A stretch of 64,000 bases of DNA from assembly GCA_956465555.1 (NCBI GenBank), contig OY101119.1:2528629-2592628 (forward strand), read 5' to 3'. How positions within the stretch are numbered: the stretch's first letter is position 1; every line of letters begins with the position of its first letter. Below are positions 34,029 to 43,367 of the stretch, in pieces. The position numbers and the translations under genes are program-made. The notes under the pieces were generated by a model. That model was not told the DNA's origin and searched no databases. It worked only from the letters and a program-made list of their open reading frames with translations. The DNA comes from Nitzschia sp. pyKryTriq1. Taxonomy: Eukaryota; Bacillariophyta; Bacillariophyceae; Bacillariales; Bacillariaceae.

Positions 34029-35312
34029 CTAAATGTAGAATTTAGTGATGGCGTCATTGAATCCCTCCAAGAGCTTGAGAACTCCCAAGTCCGCCTCGAC
34101 CTTGGAATAGTCGGACGGCTCCAACTCGTCCGAAAGTTTGCCGTACACGAACACTTTTCCATCTTGTTCCCGACTGATTCGCAGGTTCTTGCTGAGGTAG
34201 GTGATCTCAAAGACAGGACGAGGATTGGTGTAACCGTCCAAATTGTTTTCTAAAAAGTCGCCCAGCTGTCGCGATCCTAACATCAGACCTTGATCAAGAA
34301 CTTGACGCAAGCCTGGGATGTTGGATCCTTTAATCTCCACTAATGTATTCCAGGAAAGAAAGTGAGCGGGGATGGGAGAGTTAGCACCAAAGATCAATAC
34401 ACCTGAATTGTGCCACCCAACGACAAATTTGTTCTTTGGGTACCGGTATTCAAAATTCAAAATAGTACCTACCTGTGTCCATGTATAGTTCCCAGGCATC
34501 ACCAAAAGCGTTAGGCGAGATGTCGGCAGAGCTCACAATAGCCCCTTCAATGGTGACCTGTAAAAACAATCGACCGGTCTTTAGAATAAAATTCCAATAC
34601 TACTTCGAAAACAACCGCCACCCATACTTACTGGCCACCCCCCAGAGTAGGCAAAGGGGGTAAAATCCCTCAAGAATGGAACTGCTCCGACGGTAACCTC
34701 GAATTCTGAGACCATTCTGGTCGGCGAAATGATTTGACGGACCTGACCAATGCTGCTGATTGCAAGTGCCTTTCGATGCATATCACAGAACCAATCGTAT
34801 TGCTTTGCCTGCTCAGGCGTCGAGCAAACAGCCCTACCAGCCATGAAAAAGGGAGAACTTCGGAATAGCTGGGTCGACGAGTAAAGAAGCTCCCAGCGTC
34901 CATTGACGAGAGGAGAATTGGCTGGTTCTGCAGTAGGGTTTTGCGCTTCAATTATTGCGATGAGACTTTCGGCCTTCTCCTTTTGCGTTGGTGTAGCGAA
35001 CTCTCCTCTTCCAGTACTGGCAGCAATTTGCAGCAAAGTTGTCAATGCGTCTTCAATTGGCATCGGTGGAGCAGGAACGCCGGCTGGCATGGAAGATGAA
35101 CCCTTCACTTCTTCCTCGACATCAGACGGTGCATCGTCCAGGGACTCGGCTTCATTCACTGCTTCAATAAACGATTCGTCACTAGGCATATCGTCCAGGC
35201 TATCATAATCGGTGCTGCCCAGAAGAACAGGATGGCGACGGGGCATCAACGGAGACATGAACCCTGTGACCATCGTCGCCCAGAGGACGAGAAAGACTGT
35301 TTTCTGCATCAT
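34029..35312 (-). CDS. PAP/fibrillin family plastid protein
   Basis: Three exons, 35312-34632, 34557-34473 and 34339-34029, joined at CCA|GTAAGT...ACAG|GTC (phase 0) and ACAG|GTAGGT...ATTAG|TGG (phase 1), giving 358 aa. The leader MMQKTVFLVLWATMVTGF fits a diatom bipartite signal, with Phe after the likely cleavage site, so it is plastid-targeted. An acidic Ser/Asp linker precedes the PAP/fibrillin domain (from about residue 95): NGRWELLYSSTQLF, GAVPFLRDFTPF, ELYMDTVEIKGSNIPGL and LRISREQDGKVFVYGKL. Family members coat plastid lipid bodies and thylakoids and bind hydrophobic metabolites. Intron 2 uses an AG that fits phase; an earlier AG would break the frame. Confidence 0.92.
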
Positions 35313-35906
35313 GGTCAAGATATGTTCTCTCTGTTGTTGGGTCTGACTCTGCTTTCTCAGCAGTTTGTTTGGTCTAACAAACTGTCCAGACAGCAAATAA
35401 ATCCTCTCGTGGTTGGTCCTCGGGGCAATTCTTTTGGAATGCAATCGCAAAAAGACTTCCGTCATCATCGTCGATCGTCATGAATTTTGAATACTATAAT
35501 ATGTTGGAAAACGACGCTGAGTCAGTCTTCGAAGCACTTGCCCACGTCACGCGGGACTGAATGATTCGTGAAAAATATGACTACTGTACTGTACTACCGT
35601 ACTCGTGTACGTAGCGGTACCGTACGACGACGAAGAGGCCTGACTTCATTCGACCATGCCTTGCCTTTTATTGCTTCCCTCGCTTTCTCTTCGTTCATCT
35701 GTCATTTCCCAGACACTCGAATTGGAGCAAGGGGTGTGCGCCATCTACAACTTTTAGTCCGCTGGAGACAAAATGCAAATCTCCTATAGTAGTTGTAGAT
35801 TATTTTCTACTGCATCCCAACGTATCAACGTGGTTGTCTCCTCATAGCGTGTATGAGAATTGATCATGACCATGCTCGCAGCGGCAGCAAGAATAATTCA
35901 GTAGAT
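35313..35906. other. Intergenic gap with GTAC cluster
   Basis: Upstream of PAP/fibrillin and downstream of the chimeric gene. About 35585-35635 is packed with GTAC/CGTAC words. No gene is seen. Confidence 0.5.
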
Positions 35907-37868
35907 CTAGGCAACATAATCTTCCAGTTTTTTCCCTCTCGTCACGGCGTGGAGCCCTATGGCAACGCGCTGCAGATTGTCGTTGTTCAAGGCAGCCAGA
36001 CTGATTTCCCCTTTGCGGGTGGGATAAACATCATATTCCCTGGCAAGCTGATCACACATTTCCGTGGTCATTCCTGTAAACACAAAAATGCCTTTTTGCT
36101 TGGAAATATGGGACCAATCATGGGTGCTTCCGACATTCTTGAGAGCTTCTACCAAACATGTCCTCATGTGTTGAATGCGATCGACCATAGACGCTGAATA
36201 ATTTTCGTAGTAGCTTTTATTTCCGGCAGTCAGATCAGTTCTAGGAGCAGAGATCCTTGAATTGGGAAATCTTGGTGATCCTCCGGAAAGCAAAGCAGCT
36301 CTATTTTGTCCCCCCCCTTTACTGCCACTGAGAATATCGTGCTGTACGATGCTCTTGTTCACGCCTAGTCCTCCATTCCCGGCAAGCGATGGATGAAAAC
36401 CCAAAAGCGCTCGATTGTGGCGTTCAAGAGCCTGCCGTCGCAAGGCCTCGTCCTGCCTTGCGATCCCCAACTGGGCGAGATACATTTGGTTGGCAGCACC
36501 ACCCTGTTGTAGGTAGTTGCTAAAACCACTGCTCCCATCATGATGTTGCAGGCCGCTAGCGCCGGAAGCTGACGACAATCGAAGTGAAGAGCCAGCACCA
36601 GCATAATCGCCGTATAATAGAGGGTTCCCACCAGATGGGGCTGTGGAAAAAGGAGACCGAGGGAGAATGGGAGCGTTGTTATTGATTCCAGAAGAAGAAT
36701 GGTCCGAATACTGAGAGGAGGAGTCTTCGTTGTCAGTTTTTTTCGTTTCGTCCATTGGTCCGGACGACTCTTCTGAGCTTCCTCTATTCTTCTTAAAACG
36801 TCGAGTCGATGCCTTGCTCTCGCTGCTGCTTTTGTATGCATCGGATTTCATGTTCCGAAAGGCCTGGGAGATTTTCTCTCTCACAATGTTCTCATCAACC
36901 TCCCAGTATCTTTCGGTATCTTCCTCAAACTTGACGAAAGCTCCCACGGGACATTTCCTGTACATGTGTAGCATTATTTTTCGAATGATTCTGGCTCTTT
37001 CGCCTCGCGCTATGCCCTCTCTGCTGTATTCAGCGAGATGCCCACGAATGATTGCCCTAAGACGAATGTTTCCTGGCGAATTCTTTGCGATCGACCCCTT
37101 AGCGACGAGGACTGTGTCGTCTGTAGGGGTGAAATCGATTGGCAATTCTTTCCTTATTCTTCGCATCTTGTGTAAAAAATCAGGTAATCTGCCCTGGGCC
37201 AGATCCTCCTCCCTTCGCCTGTCAATCTCTAGTTGCTCCGCCGGAGTAGGGAAGCTGGACGGTGGCGGTTTCGATGCATTTTTCGGTAATCGGAGTGGCT
37301 TGGATGTGGAAGGCGAAGGCGCTAGCTGTGTCCATTGATGGGGCGGCCTGACCACCGCTGAGTGGGCGTTCGTGATAGGCGGCGGTGGTGCATATGCGTC
37401 GTCGTCTAGAATCACAAAAGGATTCTTCCCCGACCCAGCACTACTGGAGCCGGGGTTACTTGTACCGACCTTGAGGGAAGGCGCGGCCGATTGTGAAGAA
37501 TCATGCCTCCCGATTTGCTCGGATGCCATGATCATCTTTTCCCGGAACATCTTGTCGATCTTCTTCCAAATCAGAGCTTCGTCTGCCTCCCAGTACGACC
37601 TACCATCGAACGTGACGAAACCAGCATCTGCGGGGCACAAGTCGTTGATGACCAGTATCACTGTCTGGATGATGGCATCCTTTTCGAATTCACCCCCGGA
37701 CGCGTAGACTTGGAAGTAATTTTGTACAATTTGCCGCAGTCTTCGGTTTCCAGTGACGATACTTTCCACAGAAGCTTCATCGTCTCCGGCCGCCAGAACG
37801 ACAGTGTTGGCACAGGGCCTAAACTTTTCGGGAAATCTTTTTCTCGTCAATACCACTCCAAACCCCAT
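35907..37868 (-). CDS. DUF6824 double-domain protein fused to aminotransferase C-terminal fragment
   Basis: An uninterrupted 653-aa frame. Two DUF6824 domains, known mainly from diatom and other stramenopile regulator-like proteins, lie at about 22-112 (GNRRLRQIVQNYFQVY, YWEADEALIWKKIDKMF) and 250-340 (GNIRLRAIIRGHLAEY, RYWEVDENIVREKISQAF). A long Ser/Gly/Asn/Gln-rich linker follows. Residues about 553-653 then match the C-terminal small domain of aspartate aminotransferase: MRTCLVEALKNVGSTHDWSH, FTGMTTEMCDQL, LNNDNLQRVA. By eye about 60% of these residues match the intact enzyme encoded at 39950-41345. The pyridoxal-lysine domain is absent and the substrate Arg in DGRIS is Glu (KGEIS), so catalysis is excluded. 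DUF6824 function is unproven; a nucleic-acid-binding role is inferred. Confidence 0.88.
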   Translation of the reverse strand: MGFGVVLTRKRFPEKFRPCANTVVLAAGDDEASVESIVTGNRRLRQIVQNYFQVYASGGEFEKDAIIQTVILVINDLCPADAGFVTFDGRSYWEADEALIWKKIDKMFREKMIMASEQIGRHDSSQSAAPSLKVGTSNPGSSSAGSGKNPFVILDDDAYAPPPPITNAHSAVVRPPHQWTQLAPSPSTSKPLRLPKNASKPPPSSFPTPAEQLEIDRRREEDLAQGRLPDFLHKMRRIRKELPIDFTPTDDTVLVAKGSIAKNSPGNIRLRAIIRGHLAEYSREGIARGERARIIRKIMLHMYRKCPVGAFVKFEEDTERYWEVDENIVREKISQAFRNMKSDAYKSSSESKASTRRFKKNRGSSEESSGPMDETKKTDNEDSSSQYSDHSSSGINNNAPILPRSPFSTAPSGGNPLLYGDYAGAGSSLRLSSASGASGLQHHDGSSGFSNYLQQGGAANQMYLAQLGIARQDEALRRQALERHNRALLGFHPSLAGNGGLGVNKSIVQHDILSGSKGGGQNRAALLSGGSPRFPNSRISAPRTDLTAGNKSYYENYSASMVDRIQHMRTCLVEALKNVGSTHDWSHISKQKGIFVFTGMTTEMCDQLAREYDVYPTRKGEISLAALNNDNLQRVAIGLHAVTRGKKLEDYVA

Positions 37869-38636
37869 GATGAATTAGTAATGCGATGTGATGCTCAACT
37901 TAACTCACTACTGGTCTACGAGGTACTCGTTTCGTCGTCAGTCGTCACAGTCGGTGAATGTTCTTCAGGCCGGCTGCTTGCTGTTCAAAAGCACGACTAC
38001 TGTGTGAGATGTTCCGCCCTATGACCAGATACTTGATACTTGTACTGTACGAGTAATGCTCTGACTGATGCGATGTTTGCTCTTCGTCTCCTCGAGAGAG
38101 GGGAACAACGACCCACCGGCTACCGGTGTCCAAAAGTGATGCCGTTGCAAAAGTGATGCCGTTTTTTCGCTGCGCGCGTAAAAGCACGCGGGGTTTCCTG
38201 ACTTGTACGATTACAGACCCACGCACAGCTTTTGTTGTTAGCTACAATAGAGTAGTGATGAACTCCTAGACTAGCTACGAACAGGACAACAACGGCATAG
38301 GTGATGTAGACTACGAGACATAATTATCATTTGACAGCAACCTAAAGTATGAGTTACAACTTGGTGCCGCCACCAACTACTGGTACAGTTAGTAGGGAGT
38401 ATCTCTACTAAAAAGGTCTTGCTGGCAATATTTACTAGCTAAATTTACACGCGGATTTTCACGCAGTACCTACCCAGCACAACATAGATCGGTGAGATTC
38501 AGGTCAAAAATCGATCATTTGAAAAATCCAACACAACACAATATTTCTTCATACAATGAAGAATATTGTCATAATTGGCTTACCTTCGTTTCATGGTCTG
38601 GTTGTTGAGATATGGTCTTCCCCACAACCATGTTCC
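37869..38636. other. Intergenic gap upstream of chimeric gene
   Basis: No gene is seen. It holds a short tandem duplication AAAAGTGATGCCGTT at about 38131-38162 and scattered TACTAG/GTAC words, and runs into the repeat nest at 38637. Confidence 0.4.
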
Positions 38637-39523
38637 ATGGCGCAGGCGCCAACCAGCCCTCAACTCTCTCGGACAGTATAGACCGATGAATGTTAGTGTA
38701 GTCTTTCAAATTCGTTGGCCTAAGACCCTACTCGACTTCGAACTGCGTAGCGGTTCTCTGTCTTTCGGGTTACCCTTTGGTACATCACCTTGCCTCGTTT
38801 CAAGGTGTAAGGGATGGTGGGCGGGTTTTTTAAACTATTCTTACTGGTAACTCGAAGACGAAGCGATGTTCGTTTGATCGATGATCTTGTGTGATCATCG
38901 GTCGTCTCTCGTTGGTCGGTTGGAAATTATTTGGCGCACTCTGGTCGACTTCTGGTCTGTCCATCTCTCGTTGGGGGTGCGAATGGCGCAGGCGCCAACC
39001 AGCCCTCAACTCTCTCGGACAGTATAGACCGATGAATGTTAGTGATGGCGAGGAACGTAGCGAGATGACCCAGCCCGGTAACCCCTACCAAGACGAAATC
39101 CTCTTGGGTTTTCGCCAAGGTGATGTTGTGGACGAATTTCACCTCTCCTTCTTTCGTGGCCACCAGCATCGCCGCGTCTCCTCCTGCCGCCGCCACTTCG
39201 AGCTTCATCATCTCGGTCGTCGTCTCGTTGGTCGCATCAAGGTTGTTGAGTTGTTTTTCGATTTTCGCCTTCGCCCACGATCCTTCTTTTTGGATTCTCT
39301 CCTGGAGATAGTCTCCCCACTTCGGGTTGGTAGTAGACGCCATTGAAAGGTTTGTAAAGTGTGCTTTTTAAACTATTCTTACTGGTAACTCGAAGACGAA
39401 GCGATGTTCGTTTGATCGATGATCTTGTGTGATCATCGGTCGTCTCTCGTCGGTCGGTTGGAAATTATTTGGCGCACTCTGGTCGACTTCTGGTCTGTCC
39501 GTCTCTCGTTGGGGGTGCGAATG
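38637..39523. repeat. Nested direct-repeat block (62 bp and 159 bp units)
   Basis: Unit B, 62 bp (ATGGCGCAGGCGCCAACCAG...GAATGTTAGTG), occurs at 38637-38698 and 38983-39044 and reads as identical. Unit A, 159 bp (TTTTTAAACTATTCTTACTG...GGGGTGCGAATG), occurs at 38827-38985 and 39365-39523 with two substitutions. A1 and B2 abut with a 3-bp overlap. Units A flank about 380 bp containing most of a small open frame. The arrangement looks like remains of an inserted element or a local segmental duplication; family not identified and no clear ends seen. It lies between the aminotransferase gene and the chimeric gene. Confidence 0.85.
38927..39343 (-). CDS. Repeat-borne small open frame, hypothetical
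   Basis: A 138-aa frame whose ATG lies 21 bp inside repeat copy A2; it runs through unit B2 into A1. It is charged and helical at first (KWGDYLQERIQKEGSWAKAK, EKQLNNLDATNET) with an Ala/Gly stretch, then a hydrophobic segment (FVLVGVTGLGHLATFLAI), then the B-encoded HRSILSERVEGWLAPAP. No family is recognised. Because its 3' part is built from repeat units it probably belongs to a repetitive element rather than being a conserved host gene. Confidence 0.4.
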   Translation of the reverse strand: MASTTNPKWGDYLQERIQKEGSWAKAKIEKQLNNLDATNETTTEMMKLEVAAAGGDAAMLVATKEGEVKFVHNITLAKTQEDFVLVGVTGLGHLATFLAITNIHRSILSERVEGWLAPAPFAPPTRDGQTRSRPECAK

Positions 39524-39949
39524 TTGCGCGGAAGAATGAAACCCTGCGGTATCGGTATGTACCGTAAAGCAGCGAAAAACTGTACTCGTAGTCTAATTTA
39601 GCTACCAGGTAGCTAGTCTATCCCCTCTACTACTCCTTCGAACTGTACTACTTGCAGAGAAAAGCGATGACAAATGAATCTATCATTACGACACAGAGGC
39701 AGCAGGAGCAAAACAGCAACAATTATTCTCTAATTCAGGATTAGATCTCAGAATATTCGTAGTCTCTTCCCGATCCTACTACAGTACTACCCGTCGTTCC
39801 TGTCACCAGTACCATGGCTATAGCTCTAGCGCTCACTGTATGTCTTTATGATTTATCAATGGATTCACAAGGTGAACCATGTATATGAATCATCATCTTC
39901 GTCGTTTTTCAATATTAGCTACTACGTGTACTCGTGCTGGGCAATTTTT

Positions 39950-41345
39950 TTAATTCGAAGTAATGCTTTTCCCGTTTGTCACTGCGTGGATCGCGGTCGC
40001 GACGTACTCCAGATTATCGTCGTTCAAACCAGCGATACTGATCCGTCCATCACGAGTCAGAAAAATGGCATATTCACTCGTCAATTGGTCACACATTTCG
40101 GCTGACATCCCCGTGAAGGCAAACATTCCGATTTGTTCGGTGACATGCGACCAGTCATGAGTACTGCCAGCTTCCTTCAGAGCATCTACCAGTCGCGTCC
40201 TCATGGATTGAATTCGGCCTGCCATGGTTTCACATTCCTCATAATATTGCTTAGTCAAAGTTGGATCCGAAAGAACCGTACGGACAATCGAACTTCCATG
40301 TTTGGGTGGCGAGGAGTACATGGGCCGGATGACACATTTCAGTTGGCTCATCAAAATCTCTTTCTGTTCCTCGTCGTTACCAACGACGCTAAGCGTGCCG
40401 CAACGTTCTCCATAAAGCCCAAAATTCTTGGCAAATGATTGAGCAAGCATGACTGGTAAACCTTCATCAACGACCCGACGAAGAGCTTTGGCATCGGCTT
40501 CTGCGTCACCGGAAGCAAATCCTTTGTTTTCATCAAATAATAATAGGGGAATTGTGAGAATTCATTTCATCGCGTCAAGGCCCGACAATGACTTGAGGTG
40601 ACTCACCTTGGTATGCGGAATCAAAAAAGACTAAATGTTGCTTTCTCTTGATGAGATCAATCAGTTGTGACCACTGCTCGTCGGTAGGGTCACAGCCTGT
40701 TGGGTTGTGGGCACAGGCATGCATCAACAAAACGGATCCCTCAGGGGCCGACTCAAGGTCCTCCAACATTCCATCAAGATTCAAGCGGTTAGTGGAGCGA
40801 TCATAGTATCGGTACGTTTGCACGTCCAAACCACATTCGGCGAAAATTTTGTGATGGTTGCCCCAGGTCGGTACGGGAAGGTAAATGGGTTTTCCAGGGT
40901 AGAACAAGGCCAAAAATTCGCCGCCGATACGGCAAGCTCCCGTCCCCGACAAAGTCTGCACTCCCGCGATACGTTCCAAAGGTGCATCTCCTCCATAGGC
41001 AAATTTAAGGGCCTTTTCAACAAATGCTTGATCTCCCTCGATCGGCAAATATTCCTTGTTCTCGTTGGATGCCAACATTTGTTCTTCGGCTGCTCGTACC
41101 GAAGGAAGGACCCAAGGTTTCCCAGAAGCATCACGGTAGGCTCCAACGCAAACATTCACTTTTCGATCATCCTCACAGGTTCGAAAAGCTTGAGCGATTC
41201 CCAAGATAGCGTCGGGTGGGCCCCTGGGGACATCATTCCAGATAGAAATCGGCGGTTTCGACGTTTCGGCGGTGACCGGGAAGGACGACGCCAACAACCC
41301 ACCAGATGCAACAATGAACAGGAACGCATTCATGATGAGCTGCAT
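39950..41345 (-). CDS. Aspartate aminotransferase, plastid-targeted
   Basis: Two exons, 41345-40607 and 40521-39950, joined phase 1 across an 85-bp GTGAGT...AAAG intron, giving 436 aa. The leader MNAFLFIVASGGLLASSFPV is a signal peptide with an ASSF|P site, the diatom stromal bipartite signal. The fold-type I enzyme is complete: VNVCVGAYRD, SGTGACRIGGEFL, PTWGNHHKIF, HACAHNPTGCDPT, FFDSAYQG, the pyridoxal lysine in QSFAKNFGLYGERCG and the substrate Arg in DGRISIAGLN. It interconverts aspartate plus 2-oxoglutarate with oxaloacetate plus glutamate, supplying amino groups and C4 acids. Its C-terminal portion is related to the tail of the chimeric protein encoded downstream on the same strand. 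Confidence 0.94.
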
Positions 41346-42050
41346 GATTGAAGAGACTGTCTTGACGAGCGACGCTTTGTCGATTAAAAATGAAAAATGA
41401 CAGTTTTGTTGGAAGGTTCGGAAGAGCAGGTCGTTGGCAGTTGGCACTTGGTGTCGAGAACAAACGTGTGGCTTTTATATAGAGTTAGTGGATCCAAATT
41501 TGCTGACGTAACGTTGGGCGAATGCGGATCTTCGCGAAGTTGAAAGTTTCGGCGGGAGCTGAAATTTCATCATACAGTACCATCGTTGACGACCAATCCG
41601 ACCATTTTTGCTAAACGGCATAAACTGAAAACTAAAGAGAGCAAGACCACTACTCGTACTCACATTGAATCATCATCATTGGGATCCACGCTCTACTCTC
41701 TCTAGTCTAGACTGGCAGAGTACTGGTACCGGTATGAATGCATAAAAGTAATTCAAGGCCATTATCTATAGCAACACTGTAGGTCTCCTACTGTAGAGCT
41801 AGAGATCGTTACTGTCTGATGTAGCTCCCTCTCGAAAACCTCTGCAATGGTCTACACCAGAATGGAACGGTATTATTCATAAAATTAAGTTGCGATTATT
41901 TTATTTCAGCTAATATCATTCAGCTAGCTACTCTGCAAGAATGTTCTGAATCCTTCGACAACCCACCTCGAACCACTTCACCGCAATGATCCTATAAAAG
42001 TTGTGAAGGTTGGGAGGCAAATCAGACCGATGGGAGACGAGGACTCCTCA
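41346..42050. other. Intergenic gap
   Basis: Upstream region of the aminotransferase, with CTCTCTCTAGTCTAGACTGG and GTACTGGTACCGGTATG near 41690-41735. No gene is seen. Confidence 0.4.
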
Positions 42051-43367
42051 CTATGCTGCCACATCCGTGGTCTCCACGACAGCGGGAGTTTCTATGCATT
42101 GCTTCTCAGTTTCTGCTCTATCCTGTTGTCGCGAGGCTATGACTGATAGCTGATTCGACAAGTCGTTCGTCGATGGGATATTTTTAACTTCTTTCTTGAT
42201 TCTCGCCAGTCGCTCGGCTTTTTCGCACTGATTCCCAGCCCGAATCTTATCCACAGTATTTTTCATTTCCCTTGCCTCGGTGACAATGGAAATTGCACTC
42301 AGCGCACCAGCTGTGAGGGGCTTAAGCCCATGCATTGCAGTTCGAGCCCAATGCAGTCGAGTTTGGTCCTGATCTTTCTTCAATGTATTGGCGAGCTGTT
42401 CTTCCTCCTTTTCCTCCATATCCATGATACTGGGTAGCCGAGCAATACACGAAACGATCGAGTGAAGAGTCAAGATCTTCGACGACATTTTGTTTGGCTC
42501 GCCTCGATAATTGACCGCTTCACTTCCCGCTGTGGCGGCGGTGGCACCTCCACCGAAAAGAATGGAGGCCAGGAGTAAAGGAGGACCGACGGGTGTGAAA
42601 ATAGTGCAAGCCGCCGCCACACCTAAACCACCCGAAACCATTCCGGTGGCGCTGCTTGCCAATCCGATTTTATTGTGACGAGATGTATTGCCTTGTAGCG
42701 CCACGACGACTTCGTCGATAAATTGCGTGGAATACATCAACACCAGAAGGGCCCTGTCGTATACTTCGAGCATGCTGTTGAGCCGGTCCCTTTTCTGCAC
42801 CGGATCCTCTTCTTGCATTATATTTTTCACGAGATAGTTCACGGAGAACAAATGGGCACACTCCGAACAAATTGTGATGTTCTGTTTGCCAAAATCAGAC
42901 GAATGATGAAGCTTACAGACCGGTGATCCACATGTTAAACAGGGCGACGCGGCCTTTTTCGACATCCACTTTCCGAATTTCGACTTGACAATGTTCGAGG
43001 AGTGTTCGGCACGAAGACAGGGGACGCAATGATTGACATCAACCTCTTTTCCGAATTCGACCTGCAAGTTAACTTTTCGAACCGTTTCGAGACTTTGATA
43101 AGCGACGTCCAAGGTCATTGCTTGGGCCACCATCTCCTGGACAACTTCTCTCTGGACTTCCGACGCTGTTTTCGATTCGTCTTGAGTTATCGGGATCGGA
43201 GCTGGCACTTTTGGAGCCGACGAGTCATCGCCTTCCTCGGCGCCTTCGTCCTTTTTCTCCTCGTCGACGTTTTCTGGTACTCCATCGTCTTCTGTTGATG
43301 GACGAGGTGTGGCATTGCTGTCAGACGATTCTGTTCTCTGCTCGTTGGCAGAATCATCATCCCCCAT
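42051..43367 (-). CDS. Zinc-finger protein with hydrophobic ApoL-like segment
   Basis: A 438-aa protein. The first 75 residues are acidic and disordered. From about 113 to 175 lies a zinc cluster: NHCVPCLRAEH, PCLTCGSPVCKLHH and ICSECAHLF, resembling a FYVE/RING-type eight-ligand finger but without the FYVE basic patch. After a helical region comes a long Gly/Ala-rich hydrophobic stretch (SATGMVSGGLGVAAACTIF, then GPPLLLASILFGGGATAATA), similar in character to the membrane-inserting hairpin of apolipoprotein-L-like proteins. A charged coiled region closes the protein. No signal peptide is present. Membrane association from the cytosolic side is inferred; the combination is not one I can name. 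Confidence 0.75.
   Translation of the reverse strand: MGDDDSANEQRTESSDSNATPRPSTEDDGVPENVDEEKKDEGAEEGDDSSAPKVPAPIPITQDESKTASEVQREVVQEMVAQAMTLDVAYQSLETVRKVNLQVEFGKEVDVNHCVPCLRAEHSSNIVKSKFGKWMSKKAASPCLTCGSPVCKLHHSSDFGKQNITICSECAHLFSVNYLVKNIMQEEDPVQKRDRLNSMLEVYDRALLVLMYSTQFIDEVVVALQGNTSRHNKIGLASSATGMVSGGLGVAAACTIFTPVGPPLLLASILFGGGATAATAGSEAVNYRGEPNKMSSKILTLHSIVSCIARLPSIMDMEEKEEEQLANTLKKDQDQTRLHWARTAMHGLKPLTAGALSAISIVTEAREMKNTVDKIRAGNQCEKAERLARIKKEVKNIPSTNDLSNQLSVIASRQQDRAETEKQCIETPAVVETTDVAA

Follow-up and report, generated by a model that had tools for sequence, protein, structure and literature searches.

A probable partial-duplication chimera of an aspartate aminotransferase 3' end and a DUF6824 gene in Nitzschia sp. 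pyKryTriq1

Partial or chimeric gene duplicates, in which a fragment of a parent gene is joined to other sequence so that a new reading frame arises, are treated in sections of PMC3449122, which include examples of enzyme fragments that were reused for other tasks, such as the step from trypsinogen to antifreeze glycoprotein. The locus described here lies in a window of 64,000 nucleotides (the whole stretch of DNA that was analysed) of the diatom Nitzschia sp. pyKryTriq1 and is an event of this known type, a partial-duplication chimera: part of a parent gene, itself still present, is fused in frame with sequence from elsewhere. It differs from the described cases in that the partner is a member of the large DUF6824 family, and in that the parent contributed its 3' end. 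Like other DUF6824 (PF20710) proteins, the product carries two DUF6824 domains and a low-complexity linker. With class I aspartate aminotransferases (AATs) it shares a match to the Aminotran_1_2 profile, but only to its last quarter.

In layout alone, the protein also resembles the bacterial MocR/GntR regulators, which have an N-terminal domain, a linker and an AAT-derived C-terminus. According to the partial descriptions of these regulators that were consulted, they combine a GntR wHTH domain with a whole AAT-like domain of ~350 residues. Neither was found in the chimera: there was no GntR match with Pfam (E <= 1), none for the second DUF6824 domain with Foldseek at E <= 0.001, and the AAT-derived part comprises only ~100 residues. 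Because of this similar layout, the statement of a previous sequence-only reading that no described family has such a domain order was too strong, although MocR proteins, as described there, contain a complete AAT domain. A protein with DUF6824 domains and an AAT tail was not found in the literature searched, which consisted of open-licence PMC papers.

Architecture of the reading frame and its family

The frame runs uninterrupted from ATG to stop over 653 codons on the minus strand, from 37868 to 35907 (Table 1); the sequence-only reading names no strand. The DUF6824 profile scored 75.4 bits, against a curated cut-off of 27, in two stretches, and Aminotran_1_2 (PF00155) scored 31.8 bits, against a cut-off of 19.7, over residues 556-636 (profile positions 270-358 of 361). 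In a search of PDB sequences, the best solved relatives of the tail were mitochondrial AATs, with 5ax8 aligned to residues 535-644 at E = 6.3e-18. The sequence-only reading had described a single frame with two DUF6824 domains, a low-complexity linker and an AAT tail of about 100 residues; the reading frame and Pfam bore this out, and the aminotransferase profile and the PDB match agreed with its assignment of the tail to the C-terminal part of an AAT. In Table 1 residues are counted from the ATG; the first DUF6824 domain corresponds to residues 41-112 in the stop-to-stop frame, which starts two codons before the ATG.

Table 1. Positions of the features in the window
Feature	Position	Strand	Basis
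Chimeric ORF, 653 aa: two DUF6824 domains, low-complexity linker, AAT C-terminal tail	35907..37868	-	ORF and Pfam
First DUF6824 domain, divergent, residues 39-110	37539..37754	-	Pfam, two stretches; placed by own HMM
Second DUF6824 domain, residues 253-339; AKG instead of the usual GRG	36852..37112	-	Pfam, alignment, AlphaFold (mean pLDDT 95.4)
Low-complexity linker, residues 340-550, open and in frame	36219..36851	-	Coding score; splice-pair control
AAT-derived tail, residues 551-653, C-terminal part of AAT small domain	35910..36218	-	Pfam, genome search, PDB sequences, fold match
Codon of Glu621, at the site of the AAT substrate-binding arginine	36006..36008	-	Alignment with neighbour AAT and 8skr
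Dispersed repeat between likely donor and chimera	38600..39530	-	At least 64 matches, itself included (40 of 213 candidates scored)
Complete 436-aa AAT gene with a single GT-AG intron of 85 nt (inferred); likely tail donor	39950..41345	-	Genome search; Pfam in both exons

This genome contains at least 150 DUF6824 matches (150 of 237 candidates were scored). From 40 of 132 regions, together with loci from the searches, we obtained 68 DUF6824 frames; 12 were dropped because they duplicated a place already represented or the chimera itself, leaving 56, or 57 with the chimera. Among these 57 (Pfam, E <= 0.01), a scan that covered single frames rather than spliced genes and in which some frames were cut at the ends of their loci, Aminotran_1_2 occurred in the chimera alone. 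The other extra matches, one to CotO (6.3e-5) and one to PPP4R2 (0.0024), were taken as low complexity, so that at the sequence level the chimera appears to be the only scanned frame with a credible extra domain. Its second DUF6824 domain grouped with five paralogues (97/87 support), and the highest identity to any row was 38%, so within this sample the DUF6824 part is an old family member and no recent copy. A GRG near the start of the domain is a majority trait rather than a curated criterion (the first G is found in 52, the R in 45 and the second G in 55 rows of the 56-row alignment); the second domain has A-K-G at this place.

The AlphaFold model of the second domain (36834-37136) reached a pLDDT of 95.4 and consists of short helices, a long helix, two strands and a C-terminal helix. 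Foldseek returned no fold match for it in PDB or BFVD at E <= 0.001, and the best hit of the DUF6824 profile among PDB sequences had an E of 0.27. The family is large and has a compact, confidently predicted fold that, judged from the model, is possibly new. Since the name DUF6824 was also absent from the open-licence PMC literature searched, the designation of the protein as a regulator in the sequence-only reading found no footing. By eye, the C-terminal ends of four related DUF6824 proteins (L018, L020, L021 and L023) contain a similar acidic motif, like DLPDDLSDIFEDE, which may serve in interaction or activation.

The AAT homology is clear from ~residue 551 (window position 36218) almost to the stop, and the phmmer alignment reaches up to residue 535. 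An extension of the homology further into the linker was rejected, as ungapped extension above residue 551 gains nothing and is equalled by 10855 of 20000 shuffled linkers. The linker has only a marginal match among the 56 other DUF6824 frames (L015, E 0.0085).

The junction between linker and tail could be an artefact of the gene model, in which the main mRNA product lacks the tail owing to an intron or an alternative end in the linker. There is a possible acceptor at 36241, and the best pairs with it, removing 82 or 122 nt, would shift the frame and lead to a stop within a few codons, yielding a tail-less protein of 518 or 503 aa. However, the best splice pair at the junction is an ordinary one: its score of 7.67 was equalled or exceeded in 165 of 234 control segments from DUF6824 frames, compared to 11.0 for the segment with the inferred intron of the neighbouring AAT gene, and a hidden intron was rejected on this basis. 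Moreover, the coding signal is in frame on both sides of the junction. With codon usage trained on the 56 other DUF6824 frames, the frame itself scored above both alternative forward frames as well as the antisense in 28 of the 32 windows, including those at the junction (501-540, 521-560 and 541-580); the four exceptions (61-100, 161-200, 401-440 and 461-500) lie elsewhere in the gene. We therefore regard such an artefact as improbable. That an assembly error has joined a DUF6824 gene to an AAT fragment is barely credible. It is true that the join rests on the assembly rather than on reads, and that this assembly holds a near-identical AAT locus on two contigs, but the tail occurs at one place in the genome, its join is in frame within a 3.3 Mb contig, and with only 61% identity to its nearest relative it is not a misplaced copy.

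Origin of the tail and the neighbouring aminotransferase gene

When the whole genome (40.65 Mb, 20 contigs) was searched in six frames with the tail, five places emerged, the tail itself among them, and no second AAT fusion. The closest, at 61% identity and 4 kb away, falls in the second exon of the AAT gene at 41345-39950, which is located ~2 kb upstream of the chimera on the same strand; this parent-like gene had escaped the sequence-only reading, which was correct on the AAT nature of the tail. Identity was 51% to copies on contigs C1 and C3, and 45% to an exon of a mitochondrial-type AAT. At the DNA level, 174 of 250 aligned nucleotides are identical between tail and neighbour (69.6%), with no gap. 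Beyond this coding block, there was no further similarity at E <= 0.1 between 34501-38600 and 39301-43000, and the flanks compared have no match. Over 86 aligned codons, the tail and the neighbour share 8 residues against the C1 copy, and the tail and the C1 copy share 3 against the neighbour. A search of viral contigs with peptide patterns confirmed no relative of the tail, one canonical DUF6824, the second DUF6824 domain of the chimera or the end of the neighbouring AAT.

At the level of sequence, the DUF6824 gene and the AAT fragment are demonstrably juxtaposed and the homology of the fragment is clear; from this we infer the order of events. The final ~100 codons of an AAT gene ancestral to the present 41345-39950, together with the stop, would have ended up in frame behind a DUF6824 gene, either taking the place of its C-terminus or lengthening it. 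The simplest history is a partial tandem duplication of the 3' end that was captured by the DUF6824 gene; equally compatible is a full AAT duplicate of which the 5' part was replaced. A genome search with the first exon of the neighbour turned up the known AAT genes and, on C3, a single weak 25% match (E 0.08); an orphan N-terminal half of a second AAT copy was therefore not seen. We also considered, from the coordinates, whether the tail could serve the neighbouring AAT gene as an alternative last exon. This was rejected, because exon 1 ends at about residue 246 of the neighbour and the tail begins ~100 residues later, and the product would therefore lack the PLP-lysine region.

Several other observations were made on the surroundings and the AAT genes. 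The repeat between the two genes has many copies in the genome and contains internal direct repeats (180 nt twice and 62 nt twice); no Pfam match was found for its 138-aa frame, and it is possibly a non-autonomous mobile element. The neighbouring AAT starts (41345-41250) with a signal-peptide-like stretch followed by ASSFP, which presumably recalls the diatom plastid-targeting motif ASAFAP. Near-identical AAT genes are present on different contigs (L011, C1:4103204-4106467, and L012, C3:2963457-2966723); they differ in 4 of 503 residues, with a DNA identity of 98.8% over 3.19 kb including flanks, and stem either from a segmental duplication of recent date or from a haplotype retained in the assembly.

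Structure, constraint and possible role of the tail

The AlphaFold model of the tail, based on an alignment of five sequences of our own, has a pLDDT of 72 and a long first helix. Among the 50 matches listed, it aligned to AAT chains with TM scores of 0.73-0.79 by query length, and corresponds to the AAT small domain, a fold match that may in part be the predictor's memory of AAT. We take the tail to be without the N-terminal part of this small domain. The AAT dimer is held together mainly by the large domain and the N-terminal arm, and both are absent from the chimera; dimerisation, one of the roles put forward for the tail by the sequence-only reading, found no support. Also absent is the PLP-binding lysine of the large domain, as the homology starts past that region. 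Tail residue 621 is a glutamate, where the neighbouring AAT has an arginine that aligns to residue 407 of the human mitochondrial AAT 8skr. This residue is presumably Arg386 in the standard AAT numbering. In the part of PMC6411801 that was consulted, Arg386 of AAT is described as binding the substrate carboxylate; PMC3870968 was set aside as support for this role, since the Arg386 in the part consulted belongs to another enzyme. With no PLP-lysine region, no large domain and Glu621 in place of the substrate arginine, the chimera cannot, on sequence grounds, be a transaminase, and catalysis of this type by the tail is excluded. By the same features, the tail would not bind PLP or dicarboxylates in the way AAT does, and AAT-type sensing of dicarboxylates is unlikely. 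Metabolite sensing, proposed by the sequence-only reading, thus fails as far as the AAT substrate site is concerned. A eukaryotic analogue of MocR whose tail senses dicarboxylates or PLP would fit the shared layout, but considering the lost site and large domain, the missing GntR domain and the lack of a fold match for the DUF6824 model, we consider this very improbable.

The tail might also be a neutral accident, a recently captured AAT fragment without function, which is translated only because nothing terminates the frame before it. The tail evolves faster than the neighbour (18 versus 3 specific residues) and has lost the substrate arginine, which would fit such an accident. It is stop-free, with one 1-codon indel in the aligned part. 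A stop-free frame alone is not rare under neutrality, and was kept in 14% of the simulations at 0.21 changes per site and in 34% at 0.1. The combination of no stop and at most one indel is less common: depending on the assumed indel:substitution ratio (0.1 or 0.05), 0.4% or 2.9% at 0.21 per site, and 8.5% or 19% at 0.1. The tail-specific changes are also conservative, with a mean BLOSUM62 score of 0.22 compared to -0.57 in neutral simulations that assumed 0.19 changes per site, 0.9% of 5000 reaching 0.22. Of the 25 columns that do not vary among three AATs from this genome and one from PDB, 4 are changed in the tail, about as many as in real AATs, since each of these four changed 3/28, 2/27, 8/38 and 6/31 when compared to the other three.

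Codon tests were done on 86 codons of four sequences, with one inserted codon of the chimera excluded, the mitochondrial-type copy truncated to 72 codons where its exon ends, and the near-identical C3 copy dropped. Under a clock, with tail and neighbour branches of equal age, the tail had an omega of 0.167, compared to 0.042 for the rest; a tail omega of 1 was worse by 2dlnL = 30.1, and equal omegas by 13.4. Without the clock, the fitted branches were very long and saturated, the tail branch, at 0.63 substitutions per codon, fitted almost as well under neutrality (worse by 2dlnL = 4.0), and the tail omega did not differ from the rest (2dlnL 0.84). The tail branch therefore appears to be under relaxed but real constraint if a clock is assumed, and the signal is weak without one. 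Some or most of this constraint may predate the fusion: the averaged omega mixes the time before and after it, so a recent loss of constraint could be hidden in it, and an arithmetic estimate leaves room for neutrality during at most roughly 13% of the time that has passed since duplication. That the tail is not simply decaying, in line with the earlier view, is supported by the open frame, the invariant columns and the test with a clock; without a clock neutrality is barely rejected. Altogether, this point stood along with the fused frame and the assignment of the tail, and the regulator, the dimerisation and the substrate-site sensing did not. Weighing these data, we think a neutral accident is unlikely, while giving it more weight than the other alternatives.

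With a probability of about 0.6, we favour a chimera of the AAT 3' end and a DUF6824 gene that arose by partial tandem duplication, with a tail probably kept as a stabilising or contact extension; the sequence data suggest that the gene is a fusion in which the tail probably has a new use. As a stabilising or protein-contact extension, the tail would perhaps pack on another partner that replaces the missing N-terminal segment of AAT. There is a slim chance that it has gone further, and that a subdomain of a fold-type-I PLP enzyme now serves a DUF6824 protein as a non-catalytic module for docking or assembly, for example by pairing with the neighbouring AAT.

What the chimera may mean

If this docking reading were true, a protein of the large algal DUF6824 family would be tied to nitrogen metabolism. 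If the tail is neither conserved nor functional, the locus would be an ordinary duplication accident, and if it is both, the chimera would provide a first handle on one member of this large family. The chimera presents a new protein architecture in a form that is easy to read, and since donor and chimera lie only 2 kb apart, the path from a fragment of an enzyme to a part of a non-enzyme can be followed.
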